Shown: positions 28,422-63,087 of the stretch, piece after piece | Position numbering within the stretch: position 1 is the stretch's first letter | How the letters are laid out: every line of letters begins with the position of its first letter | Assembly (NCBI RefSeq): GCF_000429545.1 | Contig: NZ_AUCB01000013.1 | Location: 62,001 to 126,000 of the forward strand | Length of the DNA stretch: 64,000 bases | Reading direction: 5' to 3' | Origin: Arenibacter certesii DSM 19833 | GTDB lineage: Bacteria > Bacteroidota > Bacteroidia > Flavobacteriales > Flavobacteriaceae | Notes under the pieces: model-generated | What the model saw: the letters and a program-made list of their open reading frames with translations, nothing else | What the model was told of the DNA's origin: nothing | The model's database searches: none | Translations under genes and position numbers: made by a program

Positions 28422-28422
28422 C

Positions 28423-28452
28423 AAAAGCCGAAGAGAAATCTTCGGCTTTTTT
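28423..28452 (+). terminator. Terminator of tRNA-Leu
   Basis: AAAAGCCGAAGA pairs with TCTTCGGCTTTT around GAAA, with trailing T residues. Confidence 0.9.
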
Positions 28453-28775
28453 CATTTGAAAATAGTGGCTAAAAATAGGACAGGTACAACATAGGTACAA
28501 CATTTTGCTTTTTTTTGGTGCTAATATAAAATGATATGCTTTTTAATTGTTTGACATTAAGTGCTATGAAAAACTCTTTATTTCAATAAAGTCTAGCGTT
28601 TTTTTATCATTCTATTCAAAAAACATTCTCTTTCAGTTACTTTACTCTTGTCCCAAAAAAAGCATAAATATGGGACAAATTCTTGTATTTAAACATCTAC
28701 ACTCTTCAACGAATAAAAGTTAGAATTGATCCTACTTTAGGATGAAGTTTATTGTCATACAATATTACCGCAAGT

Positions 28776-47432: not shown

Positions 47433-48488
47433 TTACATTCTTTCATCAAGCATTATTGATTTATACCAGTAAAAGAAAGCCTCTGGATTATTCTTTTTAA
47501 GCTTGTTGAGCTTATTGTATTTAGGGTTTTCAATCAACCAGTCTTTTACCTCTAATGGGTTATCAAACCTTTCAATCTTATTATTGATTTGGGATTTGAT
47601 TAGTTCAGACAAGTATGCCACTTTTGAAGATGCTATGATGGCTTCTTCAATATTGAATTTCTCAATGGTAAAGTTTGTAAAATTACTGATACCTGTTTGA
47701 AGATGTTTAAAATCTTCAGATTTAGTGTCGCGAGTTGAAAGCACAAAACAAGCTTCTTGCGTATCGTTTAGTACTTGCTCTGCGGTTATATCTAATTTTC
47801 TAAAGGAAAGCTCTTCTTTAACCACTTTTGCATAGCTGGTTCGTACCACCGTCAAATCAGAAATATTTTCCATTAAAAAAGCGACATCGAATAACTGTTT
47901 GATAATCTCTACAGGTCTTCCTTTGCTATATAGAATTCCTGTTGTTTTTGGGGCAAAGGCGGTTAGTTTATCGCCTAAAATAGCGTCAAAAGTTGGCATC
48001 ATTACTTGTGTAATTTCGCCCTCTGTCTGAATCCAATCGTGAGCTATTGGGATTTCTGTGAGTTCAGGATATGGATTTGGGGTATAAAGAACATCCAATA
48101 AAATCGGCTCAATGCTTCCATCCACGTGGCTTTTATAATATGTTTTAAAATGTCCCACAGGGGCATCAGGTGTATGTTTTCTATTGTTGTCATCTTCCCA
48201 ATGTGTGAAAACAGTTTTACTACACATAGTATCTAATATGGGGTCTATATCGCTTTGAATTTGTTCGGTTATGATATCAATGTCAATGGAAAATCGCTTT
48301 GGCTTTTTTGTTGCTAACAACAAAGCGGTTCCACCTTTGAAAATAAATTCTAGACCGTTTATCTTTAATTGTTCCAATAGTATCAAGGCATAAATAACCT
48401 TCTCTATAAGTTTTGGATCATACTTCCTGCCAAGTTTTTGCTTGACCTCAAAAATCCATTCTGGATGATATGTACTTTCTTTAATCAT
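47433..48488 (-). CDS. abiEii: AbiEii-type nucleotidyltransferase toxin
   Basis: A 351-residue protein of the AbiEii/AbiGii (DUF1814) family. The nucleotidyltransferase signature is visible as FKGGTALLLATKKP followed by FSIDIDI (GG(T/S) then DxD), and the downstream DVLYTPNPYPEL is common in the family. AbiEii toxins block growth upon phage infection, and related enzymes modify tRNA acceptor ends. The antitoxin gene lies 23 bp upstream on the same strand. On an ICE the pair can serve for both maintenance and phage defence. Confidence 0.88.
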   Translation of the reverse strand: MIKESTYHPEWIFEVKQKLGRKYDPKLIEKVIYALILLEQLKINGLEFIFKGGTALLLATKKPKRFSIDIDIITEQIQSDIDPILDTMCSKTVFTHWEDDNNRKHTPDAPVGHFKTYYKSHVDGSIEPILLDVLYTPNPYPELTEIPIAHDWIQTEGEITQVMMPTFDAILGDKLTAFAPKTTGILYSKGRPVEIIKQLFDVAFLMENISDLTVVRTSYAKVVKEELSFRKLDITAEQVLNDTQEACFVLSTRDTKSEDFKHLQTGISNFTNFTIEKFNIEEAIIASSKVAYLSELIKSQINNKIERFDNPLEVKDWLIENPKYNKLNKLKKNNPEAFFYWYKSIMLDERM

Positions 48489-48498
48489 ATATATTAAG

Positions 48499-48528
48499 TT
48501 TTGGCAAAATATTAATTCTTTGCCAAAG
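48499..48528 (-). promoter_or_regulatory. AbiE operator-like inverted repeat, toxin-proximal
   Basis: TTTGGCAAA (48500-48508) and TTTGCCAAA (48519-48527) face each other across 10 bp. The site covers the antitoxin stop codon and the gap before the toxin start. The same arm pair occurs upstream of the antitoxin gene. Confidence 0.7.
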
Positions 48529-49240
48529 TTAAATTCATTCTATGTTCTACTTCTTTTTCCTTATTTCGTCTTTGGGCATAACGTTTCATTTTGCCTTGAT
48601 TGATTTCAAACTTGCTAAAAGCCGATTCGTATATAAAATCTAATTCCCCTTGTTGTGCACCATACAAGTTGGTATCGATAATCATATCCACTAAAAGTTT
48701 CTCTAGTGATGGTATTATGATATTTTCAGTTTCGATTACAGGTGCTTCCGAAACCAAATGTTTTATAATAATTACATCATCACTGTTGTGAATGTAAAGC
48801 TCAAAGGTTTCTGTATCGGGTTCTAAAAAAACTTGTTTTCCTTTGTCCTTTAATTTGTAAAATACGGATTGGGCTACATCTTTTTCCAATTCAACAATGG
48901 TGTAATATTTAAATGGCTGGTGTCGCATTAAACCGTTCAGCCAAATAGTGTTCCAAATACAAAAGTCTATGAAGGGATAGTCCTTTTTGATTTTATTGAA
49001 CAGTCGCTTTAATTTACTATTGATAACTGGACAAAATTCATTATTCCCCTGCAACGCATAAATACCTCTAGTTGGATTTTTTAATACCCCTTCTTTTTTT
49101 AGTTTCGACAAATAGACGTTAATTGAGCTTTCTTTCAGATTTGGAAAATCTTTGCGAATGCCATCAACTAAATCTTTTTTAGAAATAGTTTGATTCCCTT
49201 GAAAATAGGATGGTATTTTTTTTTCTATTGTATAATCCAA
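48512..49240 (-). CDS. abiEi: AbiEi-like antitoxin (DUF6577-type)
   Basis: A 242-residue protein with an N-terminal winged helix (about 10-65: KKDLVDGIRKDFPNLKESSI and VYLSKLKKEGVLKNPTRGIY) and a larger C-terminal domain with PSLEKLLVDMIIDTNLYGAQ. AbiEi antitoxins bind inverted repeats in their own promoter and neutralise AbiEii without a stable complex (type IV). The paired gene order and the operator-like inverted repeats on both sides support the call. Confidence 0.85.
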   Translation of the reverse strand: MDYTIEKKIPSYFQGNQTISKKDLVDGIRKDFPNLKESSINVYLSKLKKEGVLKNPTRGIYALQGNNEFCPVINSKLKRLFNKIKKDYPFIDFCIWNTIWLNGLMRHQPFKYYTIVELEKDVAQSVFYKLKDKGKQVFLEPDTETFELYIHNSDDVIIIKHLVSEAPVIETENIIIPSLEKLLVDMIIDTNLYGAQQGELDFIYESAFSKFEINQGKMKRYAQRRNKEKEVEHRMNLTLAKN

Positions 49241-49259
49241 AGTAATTACATTTATTAAG

Positions 49260-49289
49260 CTTTGGCAAAATACAATAAATTTGCCAAAG
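49260..49289 (-). promoter_or_regulatory. AbiE operator-like inverted repeat, antitoxin promoter
   Basis: CTTTGGCAAA (49260-49269) and TTTGCCAAAG (49280-49289) form a 10-bp inverted repeat with a 10-bp spacer, about 20 bp upstream of the antitoxin start. It matches the known habit of AbiEi to bind inverted repeats for negative autoregulation. Confidence 0.75.
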
Positions 49290-49294
49290 ATTAA

Positions 49295-49957
49295 TTATTT
49301 TCTTTTGTCCCCAGCACCTTTATCAAAAGCAATCAAATTAAATAGCTCACGCATTCGGCTACGAACACGGTTTCCATAGCGTTCTTCCAGTTCTTCAGCA
49401 TTGAGATTTGTGGTAGCGTGTGTCTTGATTTTATGTTTGGTCTGAAGATAAAGTTCATATCGGGAAAGCAATACTTCGCCCATTACGTTCAAGTCTTTGC
49501 CATAGAATCTTCCGGCAGGTTCAATACCTAAATCATCAAAACAATAAAACCTGGTATTGCCATAGTCTTCAATGGTTTTAAAACCTAGGTGGTTAAAGCT
49601 GAAAGTAATGTTTCTACACGGAATCATCTCATAAGGTCTTTGCATTGGTACGATATGGCGTAGTAATTTCATCAAGGTCGTTTTTCCGCATCCTACAGGT
49701 CCAGAAAGTAAAATGCCTTTGTCGATATCAATGCCGTTCTTTTCACAATTTTCTTTGTCCTTGATGAAATAATGGCAGAGTTTACGAATGATAACCGTGT
49801 CCTCTTCATAGATTCTAAATTGTTGACCAAAGAGTTTCGATCCCTTTGCATTTAGGTAGATTAGAATTTTGTCAAAATCGTAAAGAACGCTTTTGCCATC
49901 AAACTTTCCGAGCGAGTATTCCACGCCACCTTCGGTAATTTTAGAGGGGTTGTCCAT
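49295..49957 (-). CDS. AAA+ ATP-binding protein, probable DnaC-like helicase loader
   Basis: About 220 residues from the internal ATG at 49957 (MDNPSKITEGG); a longer frame starts at 50032 but would overlap the preceding gene by 92 bp. The P-loop is LLSGPVGCGKTTLMKLL and Walker B is FYCFDDLGIEP; a sensor-1-like THATTNLNAEELEERYG and the arginine-rich NRVRSRMRELFN follow, as in DnaC/IstB proteins. It overlaps the end of the initiator-like gene by 17 bp. The pair resembles initiator-plus-loader modules of phages and plasmids. An IstB transposition helper is less likely since no IstA is present. Confidence 0.8.
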   Translation of the reverse strand: MDNPSKITEGGVEYSLGKFDGKSVLYDFDKILIYLNAKGSKLFGQQFRIYEEDTVIIRKLCHYFIKDKENCEKNGIDIDKGILLSGPVGCGKTTLMKLLRHIVPMQRPYEMIPCRNITFSFNHLGFKTIEDYGNTRFYCFDDLGIEPAGRFYGKDLNVMGEVLLSRYELYLQTKHKIKTHATTNLNAEELEERYGNRVRSRMRELFNLIAFDKGAGDKRK

Positions 49958-50696
49958 AATCTTTGTTTTTAGTGGTTCGCAAGTTGTCCTTGATTTGGGA
50001 TGCTTGTTTTTTGTTTGGTTTGTTTTCTTCATCGAAAAGCTCGGTTCTATCCATCCAGTTGAGGGCTAAGGCACGCCAATCTCTAATTTCTTTTCCATCG
50101 CTAGTTTGCCAATTTCGAGTTTCATAATGCTCGAAGAATTTTTTTCCTTCATCAGCATTAAAACTTTTTTCAACAAAAAAATCAATAACTGCCTGCCTGC
50201 CCTTTGGTTGTTTTATATTGTTTACTTGTTTGGTATTGTTTATAGTAGATACCAATACTTGTCCACTCACGGGACGGTGAGAGTCCACAACTTGTCCAGA
50301 TATGGGATAGTGCTGTCCTGCTATCGGTACACCATTGGGACGGTACTGTTCCGCAACCTGTTCTAATATGGGACTGTACCGTCCCGTATCAGGTTCATCA
50401 CTTGTACCGATAATGTACATCTTGATTTTACTACCCTTGTAAGGATTATTTGAAGGGTAGTATGACAAGTAGCCCCAAGAATCTAGGTTGGTAACACACC
50501 TGTGATAAGTGGATTTTGAACCTATTTTTGATGCGAGCATCAAATCTCTACGATTAACATAGAATTCATTTGCAAAGCGGCTACTGTTCCATTCTTGGAA
50601 CAAGGCCATATATAAACTGATATGGGTAGGGTTTAGGCGGTCATCAAAATAGAACTTTTCAAAAGCCGCGTTTAGTAGCTTTATGTAGTTCATCAT
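49941..50696 (-). CDS. Replication initiator-like protein with internal 11-residue repeats
   Basis: A 251-residue protein. The N-terminal part (about 1-95) looks like a winged helix of replication proteins (LNPTHISLYMALFQEWNSSR, NRRDLMLASKIGSKSTYHRC, LDSWGYLSYYPS). Residues about 99-150 consist of imperfect 11-residue repeats such as AGQHYPISGQV and VDSHRPVSGQV, which arise from 33-bp DNA repeats. The C-terminal part has a DnaD/DnaT-like ending (FFEHYETRNWQTSDGKEIRD then WRALALNWMDR), a motif seen in helicase-loading proteins. The AAA+ loader gene overlaps its 3' end. The role in element replication is inferred. Confidence 0.7.
   Translation of the reverse strand: MMNYIKLLNAAFEKFYFDDRLNPTHISLYMALFQEWNSSRFANEFYVNRRDLMLASKIGSKSTYHRCVTNLDSWGYLSYYPSNNPYKGSKIKMYIIGTSDEPDTGRYSPILEQVAEQYRPNGVPIAGQHYPISGQVVDSHRPVSGQVLVSTINNTKQVNNIKQPKGRQAVIDFFVEKSFNADEGKKFFEHYETRNWQTSDGKEIRDWRALALNWMDRTELFDEENKPNKKQASQIKDNLRTTKNKDYGQPL
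50238..50402. repeat. Four 33-bp tandem repeats with dyads (candidate iterons)
   Basis: GGGA occurs at 50271, 50304, 50337 and 50370, exactly 33 bp apart. Each copy has the form GGGAC-N6-GTCC with imperfect dyad symmetry; copy 4 is best (ATATGGGAC, then TGTACC, then GTCCCGTAT). A partial fifth unit precedes copy 1 (50238-50270) with the shared tail ACTTGTCC. AT-rich DNA adjoins at about 50205-50260. The period is a multiple of three, so the reading frame of the surrounding gene is kept. Confidence 0.85.
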
Positions 50697-50981
50697 TTAA
50701 GAATTTGTCTTGTGTTGTACATGGTTTGAGGTCATTACATCTTGAATTTCTTCGGCATCGTAATAGATTATGCCTCCAACTTTTGTGTATGGTAGCGTAC
50801 CATTGATTCGAAGATTCTGTAATGTTCCTGGACTGACTTGAAGCAAGTCCATAACTTCTGAAGATTTGAGATATTTTTTAAGTTTTCCAGTAGCTTGTTT
50901 GGAAAGAAGGTTTTTAATGTCATCGAGCAATTCTATTTTAAATTCCCGAAGATCGTCTGTGGTAATAATATTTGCTGGCAT
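50697..50981 (-). CDS. Excisionase-like helix-turn-helix protein
   Basis: A 94-residue protein with a HTH_17/MerR-like domain (about 38-85: YLKSSEVMDLLQVSPGTLQN, then LRINGTLPYTKVGGIIYY). Such proteins on Bacteroidetes ICEs serve as recombination directionality factors or transcription activators. It ends directly before the initiator-like gene and probably heads that operon. The 348-bp gap upstream contains paired 22-bp repeats. Confidence 0.85.
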   Translation of the reverse strand: MPANIITTDDLREFKIELLDDIKNLLSKQATGKLKKYLKSSEVMDLLQVSPGTLQNLRINGTLPYTKVGGIIYYDAEEIQDVMTSNHVQHKTNS

Positions 50982-51150
50982 AATAGAACGGTTTTAAAAG
51001 AAAGGGGCTATCATTATCGCTTTTCAACTAATTTGATAGCCCCTGACCTGATTTAACTCACGAGCTTTAGTATTTTAATAAAAAAGTGTTCGTGAATCTG
51101 TCGATTTGACTTTCGTTCTACAAATTTGGGATGATTTATTGGATATTAAC

Positions 51151-51299
51151 CCCAAGTCATACCCAAGTTGGGTGTTTTTATATGCTCATTTTCAATGGTT
51201 TAAATTAGTTTTGTTTAGCGGTTGTCCTGAAAATAGTATATGCCAAATGATAATAACGAAAATTAATTTTATTTTTTCCCAAGTAGTACCCAACTTGGG
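51151..51299. repeat. Two 22-bp operator-like repeats between rteC and the HTH gene
   Basis: The composite CCCAAGT-N2-TA-CCCAA(S)TTGGG occurs at 51151-51172 and 51278-51299 in the same orientation, 127 bp apart, differing at three positions. Each contains a near-palindrome of CCCAA and TTGGG plus an extra half site. This fits binding sites for RteC, for the excisionase-like protein or for the element's recombinase. No gene is seen in 50982-51329. Confidence 0.8.
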
Positions 51300-51329
51300 A
51301 AGAAATTTAACATTTAAGCGAAATGAATT

Positions 51330-52181
51330 TTATCCATCCGTTTCCTCCATTCTCCTTAAAAGTGTTGCTTTCAGTCTATCGATAAACTTGGTTTGGTCAA
51401 TTTTCCGTTCTCTAATTTCGAGAAAAGTTCTATAAACATTTCCGAGTTTGAGTTCAAAGATGTCTTCACAAGCCGAAACCATCTCTTTAATCCCAGCCGT
51501 ACCACTTTTTATCGCTCCTGAAGCCTGTAAGGCATAAATCAATTCAATTAGGTCTGTTTTTGAGGCTGTCCATCCAAGTCGCTCGCCATTTGATAAAGTA
51601 CTCAGTTTATTCTGTACACCGTTTGACAGATCCCTCAAATAACTTAACTCTTCTACGTAATGACTGATTAATAAATCGTAGGCCATAATTTTGGCAATTG
51701 CATTATCGTGGCTTGTGGAAAATTCTGCATCGGTATAAAAATGAGATGTGTTTGACACCAGACTGATTTTATCATTTCCTCGTAAAAAATAGAATTCATC
51801 CAAAAGTTCAGAATCTTCCCTGTAATATTTTATAAAATCTATATTTCGCCGATTGCTTTCTTGTAGTTTATTTATTTCTGAATCGATAAATTCCTGTTGA
51901 GATTTTATGGTGCCAGCAGGTCTGTTTATTAAAAAATTGTAGAGTTTGGCATAAAATTTCAATCTGCTATAAACATAAGGCTTATGTTTTTTAAAGAATA
52001 TGATTTCATTTTGTTTGTCTTGAAATTCACTTTCTCTTACACAAACTCGCAATTGCTGTAAGTATTGTCTTGAAATGGAAATACCTTGTTCAACATTATT
52101 GAAATCGTTAAGATTAGATTCCTCAACTGCTTTTATTTCCTCTTTGTAATTATCTAAAATTTTATGAATCAGCTTATGCAA
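51330..52181 (-). CDS. rteC: RteC-domain regulator
   Basis: A 283-residue helical protein of the RteC family. In CTnDOT, RteC is made after tetracycline induction and activates the excision operon. Recognisable stretches are QEFIDSEINKLQESNRRNID, FIKYYREDSELLDEFYF and GWTASKTDLIELIYALQASG; the last belongs to a C-terminal winged-helix-like region. The rteA/rteB two-component genes and tetQ are not in the window, so the inducing signal may differ. Its promoter-distal neighbour carries the paired 22-bp repeats that may be its targets. Confidence 0.88.
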   Translation of the reverse strand: MHKLIHKILDNYKEEIKAVEESNLNDFNNVEQGISISRQYLQQLRVCVRESEFQDKQNEIIFFKKHKPYVYSRLKFYAKLYNFLINRPAGTIKSQQEFIDSEINKLQESNRRNIDFIKYYREDSELLDEFYFLRGNDKISLVSNTSHFYTDAEFSTSHDNAIAKIMAYDLLISHYVEELSYLRDLSNGVQNKLSTLSNGERLGWTASKTDLIELIYALQASGAIKSGTAGIKEMVSACEDIFELKLGNVYRTFLEIRERKIDQTKFIDRLKATLLRRMEETDG

Positions 52182-52241
52182 AATATTTGGGGCTTTAGAT
52201 TTGGGTTAATTATCAATAAATATGGTTATGTGCTTATTTTT

Positions 52242-53456
52242 TTATGGTGGATTTTTGAAAAAGAATAAAAAACCAATAACAGCCAAGACAATGCTGCCAG
52301 CAATTATAAAAGGGTAGTAAAAACCACCTGCGAGTAACCAAGTCCCTAAAACAGGCCCTAGAATTTGACCAACGCTATTAGTAGAGCTCTGAATAGAAAT
52401 GTTCCTGCCAGTATTTTGCTTTGATATTAATGAGACCGCAGAAAGTAAATTTGGGGTTACCATAGCACCTCCAGCAGCGAAAACAACGATTAACACATAT
52501 ACCAAGTATTCATTCTTAAAAAAGGGAAAGACAATTAAGGATAATCCAGATATAAACAACCCTAATGCAATTTGTTTCTTTGTGGATAAAAACTTCTCTC
52601 CGTAAGTAGCGAACAAAGGTTGTAAAACAGCCATTATTGAACCACATAGCATAAAACCAATACCTATTTGGTTACTGTTAAATCCTAATTCATCTTTCCC
52701 ATATATTGAAAAGACAGTTTCAAACAGCGTTACTACAAATTGGATGACAAACGACAGACCCAGTAATACGACAAAATATTTGGTAAATGTGAATCGCAAG
52801 CTCGCTTTTTGTGTTGTGAACGTATGTACGCGAGTGGTGTTTTTTAACCATTTTGCTACTACAAATAAGACTATAAGTCCTAGAAGAGCGGCAAACAAAA
52901 AGGGTACTGAAAATCGGTCTAAATGCAGCAGACCTATCGTATATTTTAAATGAAGGTCAGTTTGAGACAGAAAGCCACCAATGACAGGGCCAAAAATAAC
53001 ACCAGAGCTAATGGCAACACCCGACCAACCCATTATTTTTGTTCTTCGTTTTTCAGAAGTAATGTCGCTCAAATATGCGTTGCTAACTGGAATAACTGAT
53101 GACGTGAAAATACCACCAAAGATGCGAGCAACATATAGCATCGTCAATGATGTAGCAAGACCGGTAAGTAATTGCATAATTACAAAGCCGATTAGCCCAA
53201 CAATGATAATGGGTTTACGGCCGTATTTATCGGATAGCCTGCCCCAGAGTACAACGAAAAGAAGCTGGAAGAGCGGATAAATACTGGTCAAAAAACCAAT
53301 ATGAAAGTTAATCGAATCAGTATCTAGGTTATCTCCTAAAGCTAATCTTTCGGTATAGTAAGGAAGGGTTGGCAATAAAATACCATAGCCCAACATCACT
53401 ACAAATAAACTCAACAGAATTAAAAATATCCTGTTGAGTTTTTCTTTTCTATCCAT
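52242..53456 (-). CDS. MFS exporter (TetA/multidrug-like)
   Basis: A 404-residue transporter with 12 predicted membrane segments. Motif A is present as GRLSDKYGRKPIII between helices 2 and 3, and the antiporter motif C region as GVIFGPVIGG in helix 5, which points to a proton-coupled drug or metal exporter. Its ATG follows the CopB stop codon without any gap (TAAATG), so the two are translationally coupled. The substrate is unknown; co-operation with copper export, for example of a chelate, is speculative. Confidence 0.85.
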   Translation of the reverse strand: MDRKEKLNRIFLILLSLFVVMLGYGILLPTLPYYTERLALGDNLDTDSINFHIGFLTSIYPLFQLLFVVLWGRLSDKYGRKPIIIVGLIGFVIMQLLTGLATSLTMLYVARIFGGIFTSSVIPVSNAYLSDITSEKRRTKIMGWSGVAISSGVIFGPVIGGFLSQTDLHLKYTIGLLHLDRFSVPFLFAALLGLIVLFVVAKWLKNTTRVHTFTTQKASLRFTFTKYFVVLLGLSFVIQFVVTLFETVFSIYGKDELGFNSNQIGIGFMLCGSIMAVLQPLFATYGEKFLSTKKQIALGLFISGLSLIVFPFFKNEYLVYVLIVVFAAGGAMVTPNLLSAVSLISKQNTGRNISIQSSTNSVGQILGPVLGTWLLAGGFYYPFIIAGSIVLAVIGFLFFFKNPP

Positions 53457-55574
53457 TTATTTTTTACCGATTTTTCGCTTCAATAATTGCGCATTAATAG
53501 CCACTATAATTGTACTCAAACTCATAAATACCGCTCCTACAGCTGGCCCTAAAACAAAGCCAGAAGAGTATAGAACACCTGCAGCTAATGGAATGGCCAC
53601 CACATTATACCCAGTTGCCCAAATTAGGTTCTGAATCATTTTATTGTACGTAGCCTTTCCGAACAAAATTAGGTTTGCAATATCTTGTGGATTGCTATTT
53701 ACCAATATAATATCGGCTGTTTCGGCGGCTACATCAGTACCAGAACCAACAGCGATTCCTACATCAGCTTTGGCAAGTGCGGGCGCATCGTTTACGCCAT
53801 CTCCAGTCATAGCCACAAACTCTCCTTTGTTTTGCAACTCTTCTACAATTTCTACTTTTTGGTGTGGTAGCACTTCGGCATAATAGCCATCCAACCCTAA
53901 TTTTTCACTCACAGCTTTGGCTGTTTTTTCGTTATCCCCAGTTGCCATCAAAACTTTGATATTATTCTTTTTAAATATTTTTATAGCTTCCGCAGATTCA
54001 GGTCTTATTTCATCAGCAAGCGCAATGTATCCTGCTAGTTGTCCTTCAATTAATACAAATACAACAGTTTCAGCAGCGTCACTATAAGCATCTTCAGGAA
54101 TAGTTATTTTTTCATCCCTTAAATAACCAGGACTAACCACTTTTACTTGCTTTCCTTCTACATTTGCCTCTACACCTTTACCAGTGATCGCATTAAAGTT
54201 TTCAGGCTTTGGGATTGTAATATTGTCTTCTTTAACTTTTTTAATAATCCCAACAGCAATTGGATGTTCTGAACTTTGTTCCAATGCACTTGACAGTCTT
54301 AAGATTTCATCGTTTGAATAGGACACATTTACAGATTTGATTCGAGTAACGCCAAAGTCCCCTTTGGTCAAAGTCCCTGTTTTGTCAAATAGTAAGGCGG
54401 ATATCTTACGTGATTCTTCAAAGGCAGTTCTATTACGGATTAATAATCCATTTTGTGCAGATACAGCAGTAGAAATGGCAACTACAAGAGGAATTGCAAG
54501 ACCCAATGCGTGTGGACAAGCGATGACCATAACGGTAACCATTCTTTCTAATGCATACACAAACGGAAAGCCTAAAATCAGCCAAACTGCCAACGTACCA
54601 AAACCAATAGCCAAAGCTATATAAGTCAACCATTTTGCAGCCCTATCGGAAAGGTTTTGCATTTTAGATTTGGTCTTTTGTGCTTCCTCAACCATCGTAA
54701 TAACCTTATTGAGATAGCTGTCTTTTCCTGTATGTTCCACCTTTACCTTTAAAGTGCTATTGCCATTTACTGAACCACCTATTACCTTATCCTTTTCTTC
54801 TTTTTTCACAGGCTTGGACTCCCCTGTAAGCATTGATTCGTTTAAATAACTTGAACCTTCTACTATGATACCATCAGCTGGAACTTTCTCTCCAGGCTTT
54901 ACCAAAATCACGTCATTTTTCAACAAATCTTCAAGTGGTATATCTTCAATAGTGTCGCCTTTTACCCTGTGCGCTTCGGCAGGCATCATACTAACTAAAA
55001 GCTGTAATGCTTTTGAAGCGCCTAATACACTTTTCATTTCTATCCAATGACCAACAAGCATAATAGCAATTAGTGTTGACAGCTCCCAGAAAAAGTCAAC
55101 TCCTCGTAAACCAAAGACAGTTGCAGAACTGTAGAAATAGGCGACACTTATTGCCATAGATATAAGTGTCATCATCCCAGGTGCACCATTCTTTATTTCG
55201 GAAACAAATCCTTTAAGAAAAGGCCATCCGCCATAGAAATATACAATGGTAGAAAGCGCAAAAAGAATATAAGAATTTCCGGGAAGTAAAAATTCATACC
55301 CAAAAAAATCTTGAATCATTGGCGAGAAGAACAATATAGGGATGGTAAGTACTAGCGTTACCCAAAATCGTTTTCTAAAGTCTGCAATCATCATTTTATG
55401 ATGGTCGTGACCCATTTGTCCGTGACCCGGATTATGACCCGAATGGTCTCCACCTCCATTTCTCATTTTGGAATGATCCATTTTGGAATGATCTTCTTTT
55501 TTGTGTTTCATCTTCGAATGGTCCATTTTCGAATGGTCCATTTCTTTGTCTTTGTGATCTTTGTGATTGTCCAT
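53457..55574 (-). CDS. copB: CopB-type copper-exporting P1B ATPase
   Basis: A 705-residue P1B ATPase. The N-terminus is a His/Met/Lys-rich tail with repeated DHSKM units (about 1-62) in place of a CxxC domain. Then come eight membrane helices, the actuator GES motif (LTGESKPVKKEEK), CPH in VMVIACPHALGLAIPL, which marks the CopB (P1B-3) subtype, the phosphorylation site LLFDKTGTLTKG, and the hinge MTGDGVNDAPAL. It exports Cu(II)/Cu(I) or Ag(I). It is the first clear resistance gene of the cargo region and is coupled to the MFS gene downstream. Confidence 0.93.
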   Translation of the reverse strand: MDNHKDHKDKEMDHSKMDHSKMKHKKEDHSKMDHSKMRNGGGDHSGHNPGHGQMGHDHHKMMIADFRKRFWVTLVLTIPILFFSPMIQDFFGYEFLLPGNSYILFALSTIVYFYGGWPFLKGFVSEIKNGAPGMMTLISMAISVAYFYSSATVFGLRGVDFFWELSTLIAIMLVGHWIEMKSVLGASKALQLLVSMMPAEAHRVKGDTIEDIPLEDLLKNDVILVKPGEKVPADGIIVEGSSYLNESMLTGESKPVKKEEKDKVIGGSVNGNSTLKVKVEHTGKDSYLNKVITMVEEAQKTKSKMQNLSDRAAKWLTYIALAIGFGTLAVWLILGFPFVYALERMVTVMVIACPHALGLAIPLVVAISTAVSAQNGLLIRNRTAFEESRKISALLFDKTGTLTKGDFGVTRIKSVNVSYSNDEILRLSSALEQSSEHPIAVGIIKKVKEDNITIPKPENFNAITGKGVEANVEGKQVKVVSPGYLRDEKITIPEDAYSDAAETVVFVLIEGQLAGYIALADEIRPESAEAIKIFKKNNIKVLMATGDNEKTAKAVSEKLGLDGYYAEVLPHQKVEIVEELQNKGEFVAMTGDGVNDAPALAKADVGIAVGSGTDVAAETADIILVNSNPQDIANLILFGKATYNKMIQNLIWATGYNVVAIPLAAGVLYSSGFVLGPAVGAVFMSLSTIIVAINAQLLKRKIGKK

Positions 55575-55585
55575 AGTATTCTGTT

Positions 55586-56317
55586 TTAGGTGTTGGGATA
55601 TTTTAAATTATGTTTTTTAAGATGGTCCGTCAGTATATTTGCAACACTATAGTTGCGATACCAGCGTTTATCTGCGGGAATGATATACCAAGAAGGATCA
55701 TCACAGTTGGTTATTGCCATATTGTAAGCAGCTCTATAGGCATCCCATTGTTTCGCCGCCTTTTCATCTGCGATACTGTATTTCCAGCGTTTATGGGGTT
55801 TTGAAAGTCGTTCCTGAATACGCTCTTTCTGTTCTTCCTTGGAAATATGTAGGAAAAATTTAAGTACGTGAATGTTGCTCAGTCTTAAATGCTGCTCCAA
55901 GTATTTTATAAGTTTGCAACGGTGGGCTAACACTTCCTCCGAAAGTGAATTTGCTACCATAGGCATAAGTAGATCTTCGTAATACGAACGGTTAAACACC
56001 TGGATCATACCCTTGGGGGGAATATGCGGATAGACACGCCATAAAAAGTCATGCTTCAACTCTTCCTCGGTCGGTTTTTTAAACGATTTTACTTGAACGC
56101 CCTGAGGATTCATACTGCTAAGGGAATGACGAATGGTGCCGTCTTTTCCCGAGGTATCCATACCTTGCAGGATAATAAGTAAGCCAAAACGTCCATCGGC
56201 ATAAAACTTATTCTGAAGTTCAAAAAGTTCCTTGCGTAACTGAACCAAACCCTTCTTGCCCTCGTTTTTTGAAATGTTCGAGGGCGGTTGCGTCGAAATT
56301 GTATCTAAATCTATCAT
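55586..56317 (-). CDS. ppk2: Polyphosphate kinase 2
   Basis: A 243-residue P-loop kinase of the PPK2 family: Walker A LQGMDTSGKDGTI, the lid region RFGLLI..LRRV-type helices, Walker B VFNRSYYEDLL and RWKYSIADEKAAKQWDAY near the C-terminus. It transfers phosphate between polyphosphate and nucleoside mono- or diphosphates. The Asp usually starting the Walker B loop (FDRSHY in many) is Asn here (FNRSYY), worth noting for activity. It is 11 bp upstream of the copB start and could share its transcript. Confidence 0.88.
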   Translation of the reverse strand: MIDLDTISTQPPSNISKNEGKKGLVQLRKELFELQNKFYADGRFGLLIILQGMDTSGKDGTIRHSLSSMNPQGVQVKSFKKPTEEELKHDFLWRVYPHIPPKGMIQVFNRSYYEDLLMPMVANSLSEEVLAHRCKLIKYLEQHLRLSNIHVLKFFLHISKEEQKERIQERLSKPHKRWKYSIADEKAAKQWDAYRAAYNMAITNCDDPSWYIIPADKRWYRNYSVANILTDHLKKHNLKYPNT

Positions 56318-56327
56318 TTTTAATGCT

Positions 56328-56621
56328 TTATCGTAATTTTATTCTCATTGCTTCTGAAATGTTTTCAGCATAGACGCCGTAGGCATCTACCAAAAGTCCC
56401 TTTATTCCATCTTTGGAAGATATTGCGTATAGAATGCTATTGTCATCGGTACTGCTCATACCTTCAAAACGATAGGTCTTATCTACCGTAAAATCCTCTG
56501 GATGGATTTCAATTTTCAAGGAAGGACATTCCAAGCATTCTGGCTTTAAGTTGAAGTCATAAGGATAATCGTTTGCCTGTAAATCATTTATGGCTTCTGA
56601 GAGTGTGTCGTAATTTTTCAT
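56328..56621 (-). CDS. Small conserved protein, often misnamed PRPP synthetase
   Basis: A 97-residue acidic protein, MKNYDTLSEAINDLQANDYP, with CLECPSLKIEIHPEDF and a terminal GIKGLLVDAYGVYAENISEA. I recall similar proteins being common in Bacteroidota and carrying automatic names such as phosphoribosylpyrophosphate synthetase, but no PRPP-binding loop is present, so that name should not be used. It lies 10 bp before ppk2. Confidence 0.75.
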   Translation of the reverse strand: MKNYDTLSEAINDLQANDYPYDFNLKPECLECPSLKIEIHPEDFTVDKTYRFEGMSSTDDNSILYAISSKDGIKGLLVDAYGVYAENISEAMRIKLR

Positions 56622-56627
56622 TTGTAT

Positions 56628-57272
56628 TTATTTATAGTTCATTATAAAATAACTGCCATCCGATTCGGTAAATTTCTGAAAGGTCAATAACCCTTTTTCA
56701 TTTAATTTCTCGTTAACAGTATAATTGAGTTGCTTAATGCGAATTCCCAAGGCATAGGCCTTAATGTTAATTTTTGAATTAATATTATTTTCGCTATTAT
56801 TAAATTTTCGGTCGTAAATTTTTATGGTACTTTTTGAGCCAAAAAAATTCAACAAGCCCGAATCAAAACTCATTTCCAATTCTATATCTTCAAGGTTGTC
56901 CAAATCGTAGAGCTCTTTAAATTTTTTAGAGGTGGTATTAATTTCGGTCTCCTTTGATTTTGGGTTTGAAAACGGAAAAGCCATTACCATTACACTTGCC
57001 TCATCAGGCTTACAGCGATAGGTTGTGGTGTATTTATCGGTCGATTTTTTGTCTTTATCAAACAATTCCGTAACTACCTCAATTTCATAGTATCCATTTT
57101 TCTTTATTGTTTCACTGGCTTTGAAAGTTTGTTTATTTAAAAAAGAACCATTTTCATCAAAGTTTTCCCGAATAACAACTCTGCCTGAAATCTGCCCAAT
57201 GAGCATTTCAGTTTGTCCAGTCATTGTGATGCTGAATAAAGTGATTAGTACTATAAAGCCTTGTTTTCTCAT
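56628..57272 (-). CDS. Exported protein of unknown function (TapB/DUF3108-like)
   Basis: A 214-residue protein with a signal peptide (MRKQGFIVLITLFSITMTGQ) and a beta-rich body ending in a one-sided barrel-like pattern (YALGIRIKQLNYTVNEKLNE, KFTESDGSYFIMNYK). Weak similarity in layout to DUF3108/TapB proteins; not certain. It overlaps the start of the PRPP synthetase gene by 4 bp, so it belongs to the same transcript although the products act in different compartments. Confidence 0.6.
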   Translation of the reverse strand: MRKQGFIVLITLFSITMTGQTEMLIGQISGRVVIRENFDENGSFLNKQTFKASETIKKNGYYEIEVVTELFDKDKKSTDKYTTTYRCKPDEASVMVMAFPFSNPKSKETEINTTSKKFKELYDLDNLEDIELEMSFDSGLLNFFGSKSTIKIYDRKFNNSENNINSKINIKAYALGIRIKQLNYTVNEKLNEKGLLTFQKFTESDGSYFIMNYK

Positions 57273-58162
57273 ATATGGTGCATTAATTTTTTTACCTCTT
57301 TTGCCATAATATCACTTAAATCTATTCCATTTGAAGAGTGTGGGATGGTATTACAAGTCACTATTTTTTCTACTCCGGAATCCAATAAATCTTGATAGGC
57401 GTTTCCTGAAAAAACGGCGTGAATGCCTACACAAATAGGTGGTTTCATTCCTGCTTTTTTAAGATGTTGTACGGTTTCAATCATCGTTCGCGCCGTGGAA
57501 ATAATATCATCTACCAAAATGGGTGTAGCATCTTTATATATATCCACATCGGGAACAGAGACTTCTACATCACGGTCACCGTGACGCACCTTTTGTAATA
57601 CCGTAAATGGTGCTCCTGCATTTTTGGCGACTTCTGATACCCATTGTTCACTTTCAGAATCAGGTCCGATAAGTACCGGGTTTTCGATATTTTCTTTAAT
57701 CCATTCTGAAATTGCGTCGGCAGCGTGAATCACTTTATTTGGAATTTGATACACTTCTCCCAACGAACTAATTCTGTGCAAGTGAGGGTCAACTGTGGTA
57801 ATGCTATCGGCGAAACCAGAAATCAATTTTCCGAAGAAACCGGAAGTCACTCCTTCTCCTTCATTAAATACTTTGTCCTGCCGCATATACGCCAAATAGG
57901 GTGCTACCAAACAGGTACACATAGCTCCTAATGATTTGGCTGTGTGGCTTAAAAAATATAGTGACAACAGTTTTTCGTCCGGTTCGTGCAAGGTGCATAC
58001 CAGTACCACACATTTATCTTTAACATCAGACAATATGCGCGTGTATGATTCCCCGTCAGGGAATTTCCTTAATGTGGCTTGACCCACTTCAGCATCCATT
58101 TTTGTAGCCATTAGTTCTGTGAGTTCTTCATTTCCGGGAAGACTGAATAATATTGTTTTCAT
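57269..58162 (-). CDS. prs: Ribose-phosphate pyrophosphokinase
   Basis: A 297-residue PRPP synthetase with both phosphoribosyltransferase-like halves. The PRPP/ribose-phosphate loop is ILVDDIISTARTMIETVQ and the catalytic flexible loop is LQKVRHGDRDVEV; the metal-binding TVDPHLH and ATP-contact YMRQDKVF are also seen. It is more like archaeal-type and accessory forms than the main bacterial Prs (about 315 residues), so it is probably a second, element-borne copy. Directly upstream lies the nucleotide phosphorylase gene (10 bp). Confidence 0.88.
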   Translation of the reverse strand: MKTILFSLPGNEELTELMATKMDAEVGQATLRKFPDGESYTRILSDVKDKCVVLVCTLHEPDEKLLSLYFLSHTAKSLGAMCTCLVAPYLAYMRQDKVFNEGEGVTSGFFGKLISGFADSITTVDPHLHRISSLGEVYQIPNKVIHAADAISEWIKENIENPVLIGPDSESEQWVSEVAKNAGAPFTVLQKVRHGDRDVEVSVPDVDIYKDATPILVDDIISTARTMIETVQHLKKAGMKPPICVGIHAVFSGNAYQDLLDSGVEKIVTCNTIPHSSNGIDLSDIMAKEVKKLMHHI

Positions 58163-58172
58163 AGTATGTTCT

Positions 58173-59675
58173 TTAATTTATAGTTATGATGTCGTTATGG
58201 TTGTTTTCATATTCCAAGGCATAATTAAGTTCACCTTTGGATTCAGCATATATGGTATAAAGCAGTTGGTTCTCTTCGATTTGTTCTCCCAAATGCACAT
58301 TTAGAAGAATCCCTGCCGATTTAGATTGTGGTGCTCCAGAAAGCTTGGCCAGTTTTGCAATTTTACGGTTATCAATTCGTTGCAAAACGCCTGACTTTTC
58401 AGCTTTAATTTCAATTTTATAAGGTGCTAAAACTGGTTTTGAAAATTGACCTTGCGCCTTACAAATGGCTACGAATTTTTCATATGCTTTTCCAGATTTG
58501 AGAATTTTATGTGCGGTTTCCTGTCCCTTTCCTTTTTCTACTTTTCCAGAAAGTTCTAATAGTTCAGTAGCTAAAAGCAATGCTCTTTCTGTTAAGTCTT
58601 TAGGTGCATCTTCCTCATTTTTCAAAACTTTTAATATATCTATGGCTTCTAAAGTTGGACCGATACCCCTTCCAACAGGCTGCGTGCCATCCGTAACTAC
58701 AACTTTTACATTCAACCCAACAGCAGTTCCAACGGTTTCCATATGATTTTTTAGTTTTTCTGCCATTTCGGTACTGCGAACCTTGGCGGTTTCTCCCACG
58801 GGAATATCAATGACCACGTGAGTAGAACCAGCTGCTGCCTTTTTAGAGAGTACTGAAGCGATGAGCTGACCTTCGCTATCAATATCCAAGGCTTTTTCAA
58901 TTTTAATGAGCACATCATCGGCAGGACTTAACTGCGCTGTACCGCCCCAAACAAAACATCCGCCTTCTTTTTCTACTACGGTCTTTATTTCCTCGGAAGA
59001 GAGCGTAACATTGGTCAGTACTTCCATTGTATCTGCTGTGCCTGCTGGCGAAGTGATTGCCCGTGAGGATGTTTTTGGCATAGTAAGACCATACGCGGCA
59101 ACAATGGCAACTACCAATGGTGTTGTCCTATTGCCAGGCAATCCGCCAATACAATGTTTGTCGACCACGATATCCTTGTTCCAGTTCAGTTGCTTTCCGG
59201 AAGCAATCATTGCTTTCGTTAGGTCGGATATTTCATCAATATCCATTCGGTCGCCAGCACAGGCAGTAATAAATGCCGAAAGGTGGATGTTGGAATAATC
59301 GCCTTCCACGATATCGGTTATGATGTTGTTATAGGCCTTATAATCCAGTTTTTTGTTATAGATTTTTGCCCTGACGTGGCTTAAGGATTCAATAGGCTCT
59401 AAATGGGAAACATATAATGTATCGTTTGGGGAAACATTGAGTTTTTTCGCAGCAGCATCTGATAGTCCGATTTCATTAGGCAACAGAATATCAGAATTCA
59501 GGACATTAAGACTTGCTACGATTGATGTATTTGCATTGGATATTCTTATTCGGGTAAGTGCCTCAAACCCTTCTGAAATACAGACGTGGCAATCTTCGCG
59601 CATATACACTACATTTTCGTTTTGGGTATAGATTCCGAGATGTTTATATTTTAATATGTTTGAGTGTGTGTCCAT
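58173..59675 (-). CDS. Thymidine phosphorylase / AMP phosphorylase-like enzyme
   Basis: A 500-residue protein, about 60 residues longer than DeoA owing to an extra N-terminal beta domain (about 1-85), the layout of archaeal AMP phosphorylase. The core holds DKHCIGGLPGNRTTPLVVAI in place of the KHSTGG loop of true thymidine phosphorylases, then KTSSRAITSPAGTADTMEVL and DGTQPVGRGIGPTLEA. The PGNRTT loop suggests that a nucleoside 5'-monophosphate is cleaved by phosphate to base plus ribose-1,5-bisphosphate. That would feed the neighbouring PRPP synthetase module. Substrate choice is inferred. Confidence 0.82.
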   Translation of the reverse strand: MDTHSNILKYKHLGIYTQNENVVYMREDCHVCISEGFEALTRIRISNANTSIVASLNVLNSDILLPNEIGLSDAAAKKLNVSPNDTLYVSHLEPIESLSHVRAKIYNKKLDYKAYNNIITDIVEGDYSNIHLSAFITACAGDRMDIDEISDLTKAMIASGKQLNWNKDIVVDKHCIGGLPGNRTTPLVVAIVAAYGLTMPKTSSRAITSPAGTADTMEVLTNVTLSSEEIKTVVEKEGGCFVWGGTAQLSPADDVLIKIEKALDIDSEGQLIASVLSKKAAAGSTHVVIDIPVGETAKVRSTEMAEKLKNHMETVGTAVGLNVKVVVTDGTQPVGRGIGPTLEAIDILKVLKNEEDAPKDLTERALLLATELLELSGKVEKGKGQETAHKILKSGKAYEKFVAICKAQGQFSKPVLAPYKIEIKAEKSGVLQRIDNRKIAKLAKLSGAPQSKSAGILLNVHLGEQIEENQLLYTIYAESKGELNYALEYENNHNDIITIN

Positions 59676-59703
59676 ATTTTATTGGTTGTTGTGATTTTTC
59701 GAT

Positions 59704-61080
59704 TTATTCTATTTCTTCGATGGTGTATAATTGCGGAATTTCTGCATCCCACCCATAGGTTTCCTTGATGCCTTTTTGCAATGCTTCTGCACTCTCTTTT
59801 TCACCGTGTACAATGAAAATACGTTCGGGTTTGTTTTTTATATTGTCCATCCAGTCCATAAGCTCTGCGTGGTCTGCGTGTGCCGAAAGCCCTTCAATTT
59901 CTGCAACTTCCATATCAAAGGGCACCCATTTTCCATAGACTTTTAGTTCCTTATCGCCTTCCAATAATTTTCTGCCTCGCGTACCTTCAGCTTGATAGCC
60001 TACAAAAAGTAAGGTGTTATTTGGATTTTGTGCCTGTGTTTCAAGATAGTTGAGCATTCTTCCGCCTGTGAGCATTCCGCTTCCTGCAATCACGATTTTT
60101 GGCTTGTTGTCTGTTCTTAATTCCATTGTTTCCCGATAACTGCTTACGACCGTAAAGTGAGAACACATTTCGTCACATTCGTTGTCCTCCAATCTGTGCC
60201 AATCGCGAGTTCTATGAAACAGTTCCAATACATTGGCACCCATCGGGCTGTCCATAATCATTTGTACTCTGGGGATTTTCTTTTCTTTCAATAATTTCCA
60301 AAAGATGAGCATCATTAGCTGGGCACGTTCTACCGAAAAGCTTGGGACAAATAAGCTACCACCTCTGTTGATGGTATCATTTACTAATTTTTCAATATGT
60401 GGAAGTGCTTCTACTTCATCGGGATGAAACCTTCCACCATAAGTGGATTCAATGAAAAGCACATCCGCTTTTTTTGGTTTAAGGGGTGGATAGAGCAATA
60501 AATCATTGGTTCTACCAATGTCTCCTGAAAAGACAAAACGTTTTCCGTGCACATCCAACTCAATATAGGTTGCACCCAGAATATGTCCGTTGTATTGGAA
60601 GCGAGCCCTAATACCATCAAATAACGGAATCCATTGTGATTGTGGAATTCCTTTAAAGTGTGGGATAGTTTTTTCTACATCCTTTAAATCGTAAAGTGGT
60701 TCTGCGGGACTATGTTTGGAATAGCCTTCCTTATTGGCACGTTCGGCTTCTTGCTCCTGTATTTTTGCACTATCATTCAAAATGATTTTTGCAATGTCCA
60801 AAGTAGGATTCGTACCATAAATGGGACCATTGAAGCCTTGTTTTACCAATCTGGGTAAATAGCCTGTATGGTCCATATGACCGTGGGTAAGCAAAACAGC
60901 ATCAATATCACCTACATTAACAGGTGGGTACTCCCAGTTTTTAAGGCGTAATTCCTTTAACCCTTGGAAGAGGCCACAGTCTATAAGTATCTTTCTATCT
61001 CCTGTATCCACCAAATATTTTGAGCCAGTCACGGTGCCTGCCGCTCCCAAAAAGTGGATGTTTATTTTTTTGTTTTTCAT
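59704..61080 (-). CDS. MBL-fold/beta-CASP ribonuclease
   Basis: About 458 residues from ATG 61080 (MKNKKINIHFLGAAGTVTGS); an upstream in-frame ATG at 61110 adds ten unlikely residues. The metallo-beta-lactamase motif is LLTHGHMDHTGYLPRL, the Asp motif FSGDIGRT, then the beta-CASP domain (ESTYGGRFH, PSFSVERAQ) and the RNA-specificity end with GLSAHADHAEL and IVHGEKESA. Relatives are CPSF-73/RNase J-type RNA nucleases. It lies 28 bp upstream of the phosphorylase gene, so RNA breakdown next to nucleotide phosphorolysis is suggested. Confidence 0.9.
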   Translation of the reverse strand: MKNKKINIHFLGAAGTVTGSKYLVDTGDRKILIDCGLFQGLKELRLKNWEYPPVNVGDIDAVLLTHGHMDHTGYLPRLVKQGFNGPIYGTNPTLDIAKIILNDSAKIQEQEAERANKEGYSKHSPAEPLYDLKDVEKTIPHFKGIPQSQWIPLFDGIRARFQYNGHILGATYIELDVHGKRFVFSGDIGRTNDLLLYPPLKPKKADVLFIESTYGGRFHPDEVEALPHIEKLVNDTINRGGSLFVPSFSVERAQLMMLIFWKLLKEKKIPRVQMIMDSPMGANVLELFHRTRDWHRLEDNECDEMCSHFTVVSSYRETMELRTDNKPKIVIAGSGMLTGGRMLNYLETQAQNPNNTLLFVGYQAEGTRGRKLLEGDKELKVYGKWVPFDMEVAEIEGLSAHADHAELMDWMDNIKNKPERIFIVHGEKESAEALQKGIKETYGWDAEIPQLYTIEEIE

Positions 61081-61094
61081 CGTTATAGTATATA

Positions 61095-61349
61095 TTAATG
61101 TCCACCACAACAGGAAGGCGTATTTCCTTTGTCTTGGTTCGATTTGCTCAATTCCGCTATTTCGTTATATAGATTGCGGGAATCCTCTTTTATTACGAGT
61201 GCCAACTTCTTTACGGATTTAGGCTCGAAGTGTACCATACCCAATAATATTTCGAGGGCTTCTTCAAGTAGTTTAGAATCATCTTCCAATGCTTGGTAAA
61301 ATGGCTCTAAATCTATACGGTTCTGTTCTTTCAGTTCTTCTGTTTTCAT
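61095..61349 (-). CDS. Small helical protein with CCGGH tail
   Basis: An 84-residue acidic helical protein ending in SCCGGH, a likely metal or redox site (Cys-Cys-Gly-Gly-His). The body (LLEEALEILLGMVHFEPKSV) has no recognised domain. It lies 14 bp from the MBL nuclease start, within the cargo operon. Confidence 0.65.
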   Translation of the reverse strand: MKTEELKEQNRIDLEPFYQALEDDSKLLEEALEILLGMVHFEPKSVKKLALVIKEDSRNLYNEIAELSKSNQDKGNTPSCCGGH

Positions 61350-61387
61350 TTGTCCTATTTATTTAGATTAAAAATTTAAGTAGTGCT

Positions 61388-62230
61388 CTAATGAATTCCA
61401 CATAATTCTCTTGAATCTTCGAGAACCTTTTTGTGTCTTGATTTTGGCACTCCTACTTGTTCTAAAATTTTTGGGGTTTCGTGAAGCTCTTTACAGAGTA
61501 CGATACCTTCATCCAATAGTTTTGTTTTTTCAGCTTTGGTAAGTGTTGTTAATGCTGTTAATGGATGCAGCCCCGATTTATCTATTCTGTCTTTTAAACC
61601 GTCACCAATTGGATAATCCCAACTTGTCAATAGTAGCCCCACGCATTTACCATATTTCACCGCATCACTTGTAAATCGTGTATTGGTGTAAACGCCTCCT
61701 TTATGAAGCTTGGCTTCGTGACCTTTTTGACGTTCCCATTGTTTTTCAACATCTAAAAATCTTGAGTGGATATATAAGGGAATTTTAATGTTGCAAAAGC
61801 GACCTTGGTCACTGTGGTATTTACATTCAATCATATAATGGGTATTGTCTTTTTGGGCTATTACATCCACTTCGTGCTGAACGCAATTGCCTTGAACTAT
61901 TACACCAACCTGTGTTGAAAATCCTTCGTGTGCTAGTAGTTTGCCTACTAACTTCTCAAATGGGAAGCCAGAAGGACCTAATTCCATCAGGGCTTTTTTG
62001 AGTTTGTATTTTGAAGCACTTACTCTCGACTTACCTTTTAGCATTTTAAATGCCATTTGATAGATTTTTTTGGTGGTAATGCCTTCATATAATTGGTCTT
62101 CAACTTGCCCTACTATTTGCTGAATCAATTCTTCACTTGCTTGCGAACGTCTTAATGAATTGATAAGTTTATCCACATCAAAGGCTACCACGTCGCCCGA
62201 ATATTTTACTATGTTTATTGGATGTTTCAT
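61388..62230 (-). CDS. ATP-cone plus Mrr-like restriction endonuclease fusion
   Basis: A 280-residue fusion. Residues about 5-90 form an ATP-cone (INIVKYSGDVVAFDVDKLIN, TTKKIYQMAFKMLKG), the allosteric nucleotide-sensing module of ribonucleotide reductases. Residues about 95-210 form a PD-(D/E)xK nuclease of the Mrr type, with EVDVIAQK and MIECKYH supplying the catalytic Asp, Glu and Lys. A C-terminal helical domain follows. Nuclease activity could thus be gated by ATP/dATP levels. It overlaps the universal stress protein gene by 4 bp. Confidence 0.82.
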   Translation of the reverse strand: MKHPINIVKYSGDVVAFDVDKLINSLRRSQASEELIQQIVGQVEDQLYEGITTKKIYQMAFKMLKGKSRVSASKYKLKKALMELGPSGFPFEKLVGKLLAHEGFSTQVGVIVQGNCVQHEVDVIAQKDNTHYMIECKYHSDQGRFCNIKIPLYIHSRFLDVEKQWERQKGHEAKLHKGGVYTNTRFTSDAVKYGKCVGLLLTSWDYPIGDGLKDRIDKSGLHPLTALTTLTKAEKTKLLDEGIVLCKELHETPKILEQVGVPKSRHKKVLEDSRELCGIH

Positions 62231-63063: not shown

Positions 63064-63087
63064 AATTTTTTGTTTTAGGGTAGTTTG

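Follow-up and report, generated by a model that had tools for sequence, protein, structure and literature searches.

In bacteriophage lambda, the origin of replication is situated inside gene O, where inverted repeats that bind O dimers are accompanied by A+T-rich DNA, and the helicase loader is the product of gene P (PMC5043065). In pSK41, four Rep boxes are located centrally in rep; their DNA codes for a linker that joins a winged-helix N-domain to a C-domain and that the protein can do without (PMC5703833). Among integrated elements, SGI1 replicates in a plasmid-like manner after excision by means of the initiator RepA and four iterons at oriV (PMC7826253), and the ICEs ICEBs1 and Tn916 replicate for maintenance once excised (PMC4489591, PMC5704250). 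According to one review, streptococcal mobilizable elements carry replisome organizers and DnaC (PMC5704250). Another paper deals with a Bacteroides transposon in which one segment is amplified autonomously, and its text contains none of the terms 'origin of replication', 'initiator' and 'DnaC' (PMC10865816). In the literature searched, we found no description of an in-gene origin of this kind on a Bacteroidota ICE, nor of the copying or upkeep of excised Bacteroidota ICEs beyond transfer-linked replication.

Here, we analyzed a 64-kb stretch of DNA from Arenibacter certesii DSM 19833 (64,000 nt in full, hereafter the window). A mobile element found in marine flavobacteria seems to have its replication start inside the gene of the protein that would use it, a reading that stems from repeat DNA kept across many relatives even where the amino acids that it encodes change.

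Results

Genes and protein domains of the locus

The features discussed below are as follows:

51330..52181, minus strand: RteC regulator, conjugative-element context (PF09357, E 3.3e-73)
50697..50981, minus strand: HTH_17 gene, excisionase-like neighbor (PF12728, E 2e-9; excisionase PHROG, E 2.5e-8)
49941..50696, minus strand: initiator-like gene (ORF, 251 aa), containing the proposed origin
50406..50696, minus strand: N-terminal winged-helix domain (residues 1-97), the proposed DNA-binding part
50217..50405, minus strand: linker (residues 98-160), predicted disordered (pLDDT <50), whose DNA carries the repeats and the AT-rich tract
50370..50385, minus strand: site 1, GGGACGGTACAGTCCC in gene sense, 29.3 bits (23.1 bits when read on the plus strand)
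50337..50352, minus strand: site 2, GGAACAGTACCGTCCC in gene sense, 33.7 bits
50304..50319, minus strand: site 3, AGGACAGCACTATCCC in gene sense, 22.8 bits
50271..50286, minus strand: site 4, GGACTCTCACCGTCCC in gene sense, 17.8 bits, the weakest dyad
50247..50265, minus strand: junction word TGGACAAGTATTGGTATCT, two parts of which, GGACAAG and GGTATCT, are found again in distant families (linker listings; k-mers enriched relative to synonymous shuffles, in close relatives as well as distant ones)
50206..50246, minus strand: AT-rich tract, candidate DNA-opening region, containing four AAAC words at intervals of 10, 8 and 10 bp
50028..50216, minus strand: C-terminal helical domain (residues 161-223), from the structure model
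49295..49957, minus strand: DnaC-like AAA+ helicase loader (phrog_50, DnaC-like helicase loader, E 1.3e-17)

The initiator-like protein matched no Pfam family (E 0.1) and no NCBIfam family. Its N-terminal part matched phrog_428, 'replication initiation protein', weakly (E 4.9e-5), and its C-terminal part matched phrog_28809, of unknown function (E 2.2e-8); the C-terminal domain was also matched by a viral protein named replication initiator (E 2.8e-4). Foldseek returned zero PDB matches at E 0.001. The best fold matches of the N-domain were N-domain structures of plasmid initiators, which we take to be RepA_N proteins, and they scored slightly above unrelated winged helices. RepA_N initiators have a DnaD-like C-terminal domain; the C-domain here was modeled with a mean pLDDT of 69.7 and without a convincing PDB match. 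A preliminary description of this DNA had read an 11-residue repeat in the protein; such a repeat is present, and proline and glutamine recur in each of its units.

The same description placed an overlapping DnaC-like gene downstream of the winged-helix gene, where one is indeed found. The loader probably starts at ATG 49957, overlapping the initiator by 17 bp, and its longest ORF starts at 50032. Among the 179 relatives defined below, a P-loop ORF follows the initiator in 172, and in 97 of those 172 the first ATG of the loader frame lies 14 nt before the initiator's stop codon; the loader was recognized by a P-loop text pattern, by which seven of the 179 were negative. On the other side, the HTH_17 gene is not thought to be part of the origin. 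It was found upstream in 98 of 100 relatives tested with a rough text pattern, but the diverged initiators L002 and L019 have no such gene in that place. L002 (G000:C13:27144-30428), from the same genome as the window, is a second, diverged initiator behind an RteC-like gene; its linker repeat is degenerate, and the HTH_17 gene is not found between the two genes.

Together with RteC, tra genes in the window, including matches to the TraG P-loop (E 1.9e-61), Transposon_TraM (E 2.6e-39) and a coupling protein (E 2.6e-15), suggest an element of the CTnDOT type. The window holds neither a tyrosine integrase nor an att pair, and the contig's one integrase lies at C12:5965-6429. A tRNA-Leu gene (28340-28422) is followed by two copies of the direct repeat AGGTACAACAT (28482-28503), ahead of a ParB gene, and this region (28340-28503) is possibly the left end of the element; a second copy of the 29-base tRNA-Leu end was not found in the genome. 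Between the loader and the tra genes (47433-49240), a gene for an AbiEii-type nucleotidyltransferase (PF08843) is paired with a DUF6577 gene, and the pair is likely AbiE-like. An rve-type transposase (HTH_21 plus integrase core, 37941-38795) lies between the coupling protein and other tra genes. Beyond RteC (52242-63861) are genes for an MFS transporter, a P-type ATPase, PPK2, a PRPP-synthase-like protein, a phosphorylase, a beta-CASP hydrolase, an ATP-cone protein, Usp and a short-chain dehydrogenase, with a 15/45-bp repeat near the start of the P-type ATPase (55463-55553). Elsewhere, a 7-bp repeat, AGTGTTC, is present in 6.4 copies at 17784-17828, from the end of the ORF at 17234-17788.

The repeat array

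By inspection of the plus strand, GGGA starts at 50271, 50304, 50337 and 50370 with a period of exactly 33 bp, and AT-rich DNA lies beside the repeats, both as first described. The 16-mers at these positions are GGGACGGTGAGAGTCC, GGGATAGTGCTGTCCT, GGGACGGTACTGTTCC and GGGACTGTACCGTCCC, respectively. Each unit had been given the form GGGAC-N6-GTCC with imperfect dyad symmetry; the symmetry is imperfect, but the form is exact in one unit of four, GGGACTGTACCGTCCC (50370). The units at 50304 and 50337 are each one base off, and the one at 50271 has a spacer of seven bases instead of N6. In a common register, 2, 5, 6 and 7 of 8 dyad pairs are formed at 50271, 50304, 50337 and 50370, respectively (hand count; sum 20), so that the dyads are uneven. 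With uneven dyads and a single exact unit, the original observation holds in position and period and is corrected in form.

The array at 50271 is the most self-similar 4 x 33 array in the window, with 63 matches (equal at the neighboring phase, 50270), a value equalled in 2 of 2000 synonymous-codon shuffles of the initiator gene. The summed dyad score was reached by 3 of 2000 such shuffles and is tied at one unrelated window position, 60390.

Conservation in close relatives

Homologues of the initiator were found in 17 of 18 genus genomes and in 94 of 299 family genomes sampled and, with a 36-row alignment as the query, in 53 of 395 genomes of the phylum. The initiator may thus be common, although the phylum matches include N-domain-only and broken copies. 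A search of one genome per species confirmed 141 loci, of which 80 were kept, and 80 further regions were hand-picked from the genus and family match lists. The 220 loci correspond to 179 distinct coding sequences, since many loci duplicate the same contigs. Sequences with at least 68% identity and at least 235 aa were treated as close relatives; there are 88 of these including the window's own, the others being 69-98% identical, and the remaining 91 were treated as distant.

It had been proposed that DNA and period kept while residues vary would mark the repeats as binding sites, and this is the pattern seen in the 88 distinct close relatives. Synonymous changes scrambling the dyads did not occur among them, and the repeats are not missing from these close homologues. 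Their 11-residue units open with the codons TAC/CAC, NNT and CCC. The middle residue may be any of nine (H, R, N, Y, S, D, P, C or L), and the third base of its codon is T in 339 of 339 units. Histidine is written CAC at the first place (149/149) and CAT at the adjacent next place (125/125), and the third-place proline uses CCC in 332 of 335 cases, a codon chosen for 120 of 615 prolines elsewhere in the gene. Pro 102 and Pro 124, which lie in the linker outside the sites, use three codons. At conserved-residue columns of the 71 ungapped sequences, synonymous diversity was 0.102 in the linker (35 columns) vs. 0.332 in the N- and C-domains (112 columns; Mann-Whitney P 4.5e-7), and it was 0.083 (16 columns) in the initiator tail that overlaps the loader gene.

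In every one of the 88 close relatives, the sites are spaced by multiples of 33 bp. Four sites spaced 33-33-33 are found in 64 of them and three spaced 33-33 in 16, while a single interior gap of 66 is seen in six; the last two relatives have two sites each, at 99 in one and at 33 in the other. Thirteen of the 88 are exactly one unit shorter, and at least two different units are missing among the shortened relatives (L100 vs. L006, from the listed sequences). Over 335 sites of relatives, the half-site [T/C]ACnnTCCC is nearly fixed and the other half is loose, an asymmetry like that of protein-binding sites in which one half is strong and the other weak. Complementarity of paired positions over 339 sites equals the expectation under independence and falls below it at two inner pairs. 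It is the DNA, not the protein, that is conserved in the linker repeats of close relatives.

Restriction of the sites to initiator genes

A weight matrix was built from the 335 sites of 87 relatives, leaving out the window's own sequence. The four sites of the window scored 33.7, 29.3, 22.8 and 17.8 bits, and three of them, when read on the reverse strand, gave 23.1, 7.6 and 5.2 bits. Elsewhere in the window, the highest score was 4.4 bits. A one-mismatch pattern search of the 5-Mb genome from which the window derives returned six rows, five in the initiator gene and one at C12:73173, and the control returned zero. In 16 other genomes, 36 of 36 exact-pattern rows (hand count) fell inside initiator genes, and the ten one-mismatch rows outside them (eight places) were close in number to the 11 of the reversed-pattern control. 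Exact sites were found only in initiator genes across the 17 genomes searched.

The AT-rich tract

Directly 3' of the last repeat in gene sense is the AAAC tract. Within the gene, duplex stability is lowest over the 40 bp that start at 50212, which rank among the least stable 1.1% of the window. AAAC spacings of 8 or 10 make up 94% of those in close relatives, compared with 44% after synonymous shuffling; in distant relatives, 69% are 9-11, compared with 34%, and the words occupy all three codon phases. The AAACA-word test covered 148 of the 179 sequences. On this evidence, the tract would look like the region at which the DNA is opened.

Distant relatives, plasmids and phages

Distant members, which are ~30-65% identical, have other linker peptides, again with repeats that are followed by an AAAC tract. 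Their repeats are commonly GGACAAG or GGNACAAG, with a 12-bp period in some. Half-site words average 2.8 per distant linker and 1.0 in synonymous shuffles, and 70 of the 82 sequences tested (of 91) lie above their shuffled mean; the word list was picked after reading the linkers, which is not so for the 7-mer ranking. Members with little or degenerate repeat include L003/L019, L196, L199, L204 and L210. Short members (e.g., L163, L193, L201) have lost the C-domain and kept the repeats and AAAC words. A set of ~172-179 residues (L162-L166, L170, L175-L177, L180) appears to be without the C-domain and retains repeats, AAAC words and loader; among the 19 sequences below 200 aa, only L217 (109 aa) belongs to the seven without a loader.

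In distant relatives, the similarity of linker DNA tracks the N-domain when the C-domain is held fixed (partial r 0.49, 0/500 permutations), and its partial r with the C-domain when the N-domain is held fixed is -0.03 (358/500 permutations). In close relatives, the partial r values are 0.44 for the N-domain and 0.38 for the C-domain. Since linker DNA tracks the N-domain in the distant families (60 of 91 sequences, 148 of 179 in all), the correlation suggests that it is the N-domain that binds, although the segment of linker compared also sits nearer to that domain.

Relatives also occur on other types of replicon. A circular 25-kb Marivirga plasmid carries a relative of 29% identity that has both repeats and an AAAC tract. 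A loader lies behind it without overlapping, and no other replication initiator is named among the genes of its incomplete table. In the Polaribacter phage Freya_1, a relative annotated as a transcriptional regulator directly precedes a gene named DNA replication protein. Six IMG/VR contigs have relatives as well, with a P-loop gene behind in three. The linker repeats of Freya_1 and L256-L259 consist of yet other words. Phage-like L258 matches PHROGs with a replication-initiation or an O-like name (E 3.9e-27 and 4.6e-16), and O-like PHROG models were matched only by the phage relatives L258 and L260. Two Bacteroides plasmids (L273 and L274) contain phage-like modules in which an O-like gene, with a linker repeating ACAGCCAAT and ACAGGGGAT, is followed by an overlapping related loader; this gene is possibly another in-gene origin. 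On the plasmid, the range of GC skew was significant and the minimum fell ~1.3 kb from the linker; on the phage, the skew was not significant. As origin support, it is weak at most.

Discussion

Conservation of sites and period at the DNA level, restriction of the sites to one gene, a phased AT-rich tract, the gene order and a predicted three-part protein are all directly seen at this locus. The stretch is probably a vegetative (theta-type) ICE replication origin inside its own initiator gene. An origin in the style of lambda O had been suggested at the outset, and that suggestion gains support from DNA-level conservation in the 88 close relatives and from origin parts that lie in order, which in gene sense are the DNA-binding domain, repeats, AT-rich tract, C-terminal domain and helicase loader. 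At such an origin, the N-terminal winged helix of the initiator would bind the 16-bp sites that recur every 33 bp; because 33 bp is near three helical turns, the bound sites would lie roughly on one face of the DNA. Strain from the bound complex would then open the neighboring AAAC tract, the overlapping DnaC-like protein would load the host replicative helicase there, and the excised circle could subsequently be copied.

Several other explanations deserve consideration. The locus might serve solely as a primosome-assembly (single-strand initiation) site for the second strand after conjugative transfer, and not as a double-stranded vegetative origin. The tra genes of a conjugative element adjoin, and the loader alone could suffice for second-strand synthesis. 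We nevertheless consider this unlikely, given that repeated sites with an adjoining AT-rich tract fit duplex opening, that the protein resembles duplex-binding initiators, and that relatives occur on phages, and also on a plasmid for which no tra genes are listed. Iteron initiators often autoregulate, and sites within the gene could block transcription, so the initiator might bind them only for its own expression or copy number while the true origin lies elsewhere on the element. However, no site above 4.4 bits was found upstream or elsewhere in the window, and four mid-gene sites followed by an AT-rich tract would make an unusual operator; autoregulation as the only role seems quite improbable. 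It is even harder to argue that the sites are bound by RteC, the HTH_17 protein or the like. Their genes lie directly upstream, but linker DNA tracks the initiator N-domain in distant families, and repeat-bearing relatives are present on a phage and a plasmid where RteC is not among the listed genes. Moreover, L002 and L019 have no HTH_17 gene upstream, with the caveat that their linker repeats are degenerate.

The two remaining explanations concern the products of the gene and are both exceedingly unlikely. Palindromes are able to form hairpins, and the repeats might fold in the mRNA for translation control; against this, pairing across the 339 sites is no greater than independence predicts, the predicted fold is long-range with a z of -1.73 (13 of 200 shuffles fold as well), and Rfam had no match in 49000-52300. 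Alternatively, the 11-residue repeat might have been selected purely as a protein feature, in keeping with the proline and glutamine of every unit. This is difficult to reconcile with third bases that stay fixed while residues vary, with the predicted disorder of the linker, and with its replacement by other peptides in distant relatives.

If the locus is a vegetative origin, conjugative elements would join the replicons whose origin lies inside the initiator gene. The kind is a known one, and would occur here with an initiator family that has no Pfam or NCBIfam match and on conjugative elements. Now that a 180-bp candidate origin can be named together with its putative initiator and loader, the copying and upkeep of excised Bacteroidota ICEs become directly testable, and the linker offers a clean case of a DNA function written over a disordered protein segment. 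A wider hypothesis, to which we give somewhat less than even credence, is that a portable cassette of winged-helix initiator, in-gene repeats, phased AAAC tract and DnaC-like loader circulates among the ICEs, phages and plasmids of Bacteroidota. The repeats might then co-evolve with the N-domain and set incompatibility groups, and ICEs might go through a plasmid-like phase in which their own origin, not oriT and a relaxase, drives replication.

Comparison with known systems

SGI1 has its iterons outside coding sequence, as 16-bp direct repeats that lie downstream of repA and are accompanied by DnaA boxes, and its initiator belongs to another family (PMC7826253). In ICEBs1 and Tn916 a relaxase initiates replication, at oriT in ICEBs1 (PMC4489591, PMC5704250), whereas a separate origin, initiator and loader are proposed here. 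Genes 55-56 of phage Freya_1 share N-domain homology, a repetitive linker and a loader gene behind; they differ in their repeat words, in a C-domain that resembles phage replisome organizers, and in not being conjugative. The O-like modules of the Bacteroides plasmids have loader homology, repetitive linkers and a loader behind, with other repeat words, and they too are not conjugative.

Like lambda O/P, the present locus combines a proposed in-gene origin, repeated dyad sites (imperfect here) followed by A+T-rich DNA, and a loader gene downstream (PMC5043065). It differs in its 33-bp period, in AAAC words ~10 bp apart, in its conjugative setting, and in an initiator without a match to a curated O-family model (0 Pfam, 0 NCBIfam). 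Its loader is DnaC-like and AAA+ (phrog_50), whereas the lambda P family is not known to be AAA+. With pSK41 Rep, it shares mid-gene sites that encode a linker, a winged-helix N-domain and a C-domain (PMC5703833). In contrast to that system, the protein lacks a RepA_N Pfam domain (0 Pfam, E 0.1), a dedicated, overlapping loader gene follows, and the carriers are Bacteroidota ICEs. Since it fails the sequence-family tests of both lambda O and RepA_N, the cassette is not filed as a member of either family; by analogy, pSK41 is as good a model as lambda for its proposed in-gene origin.
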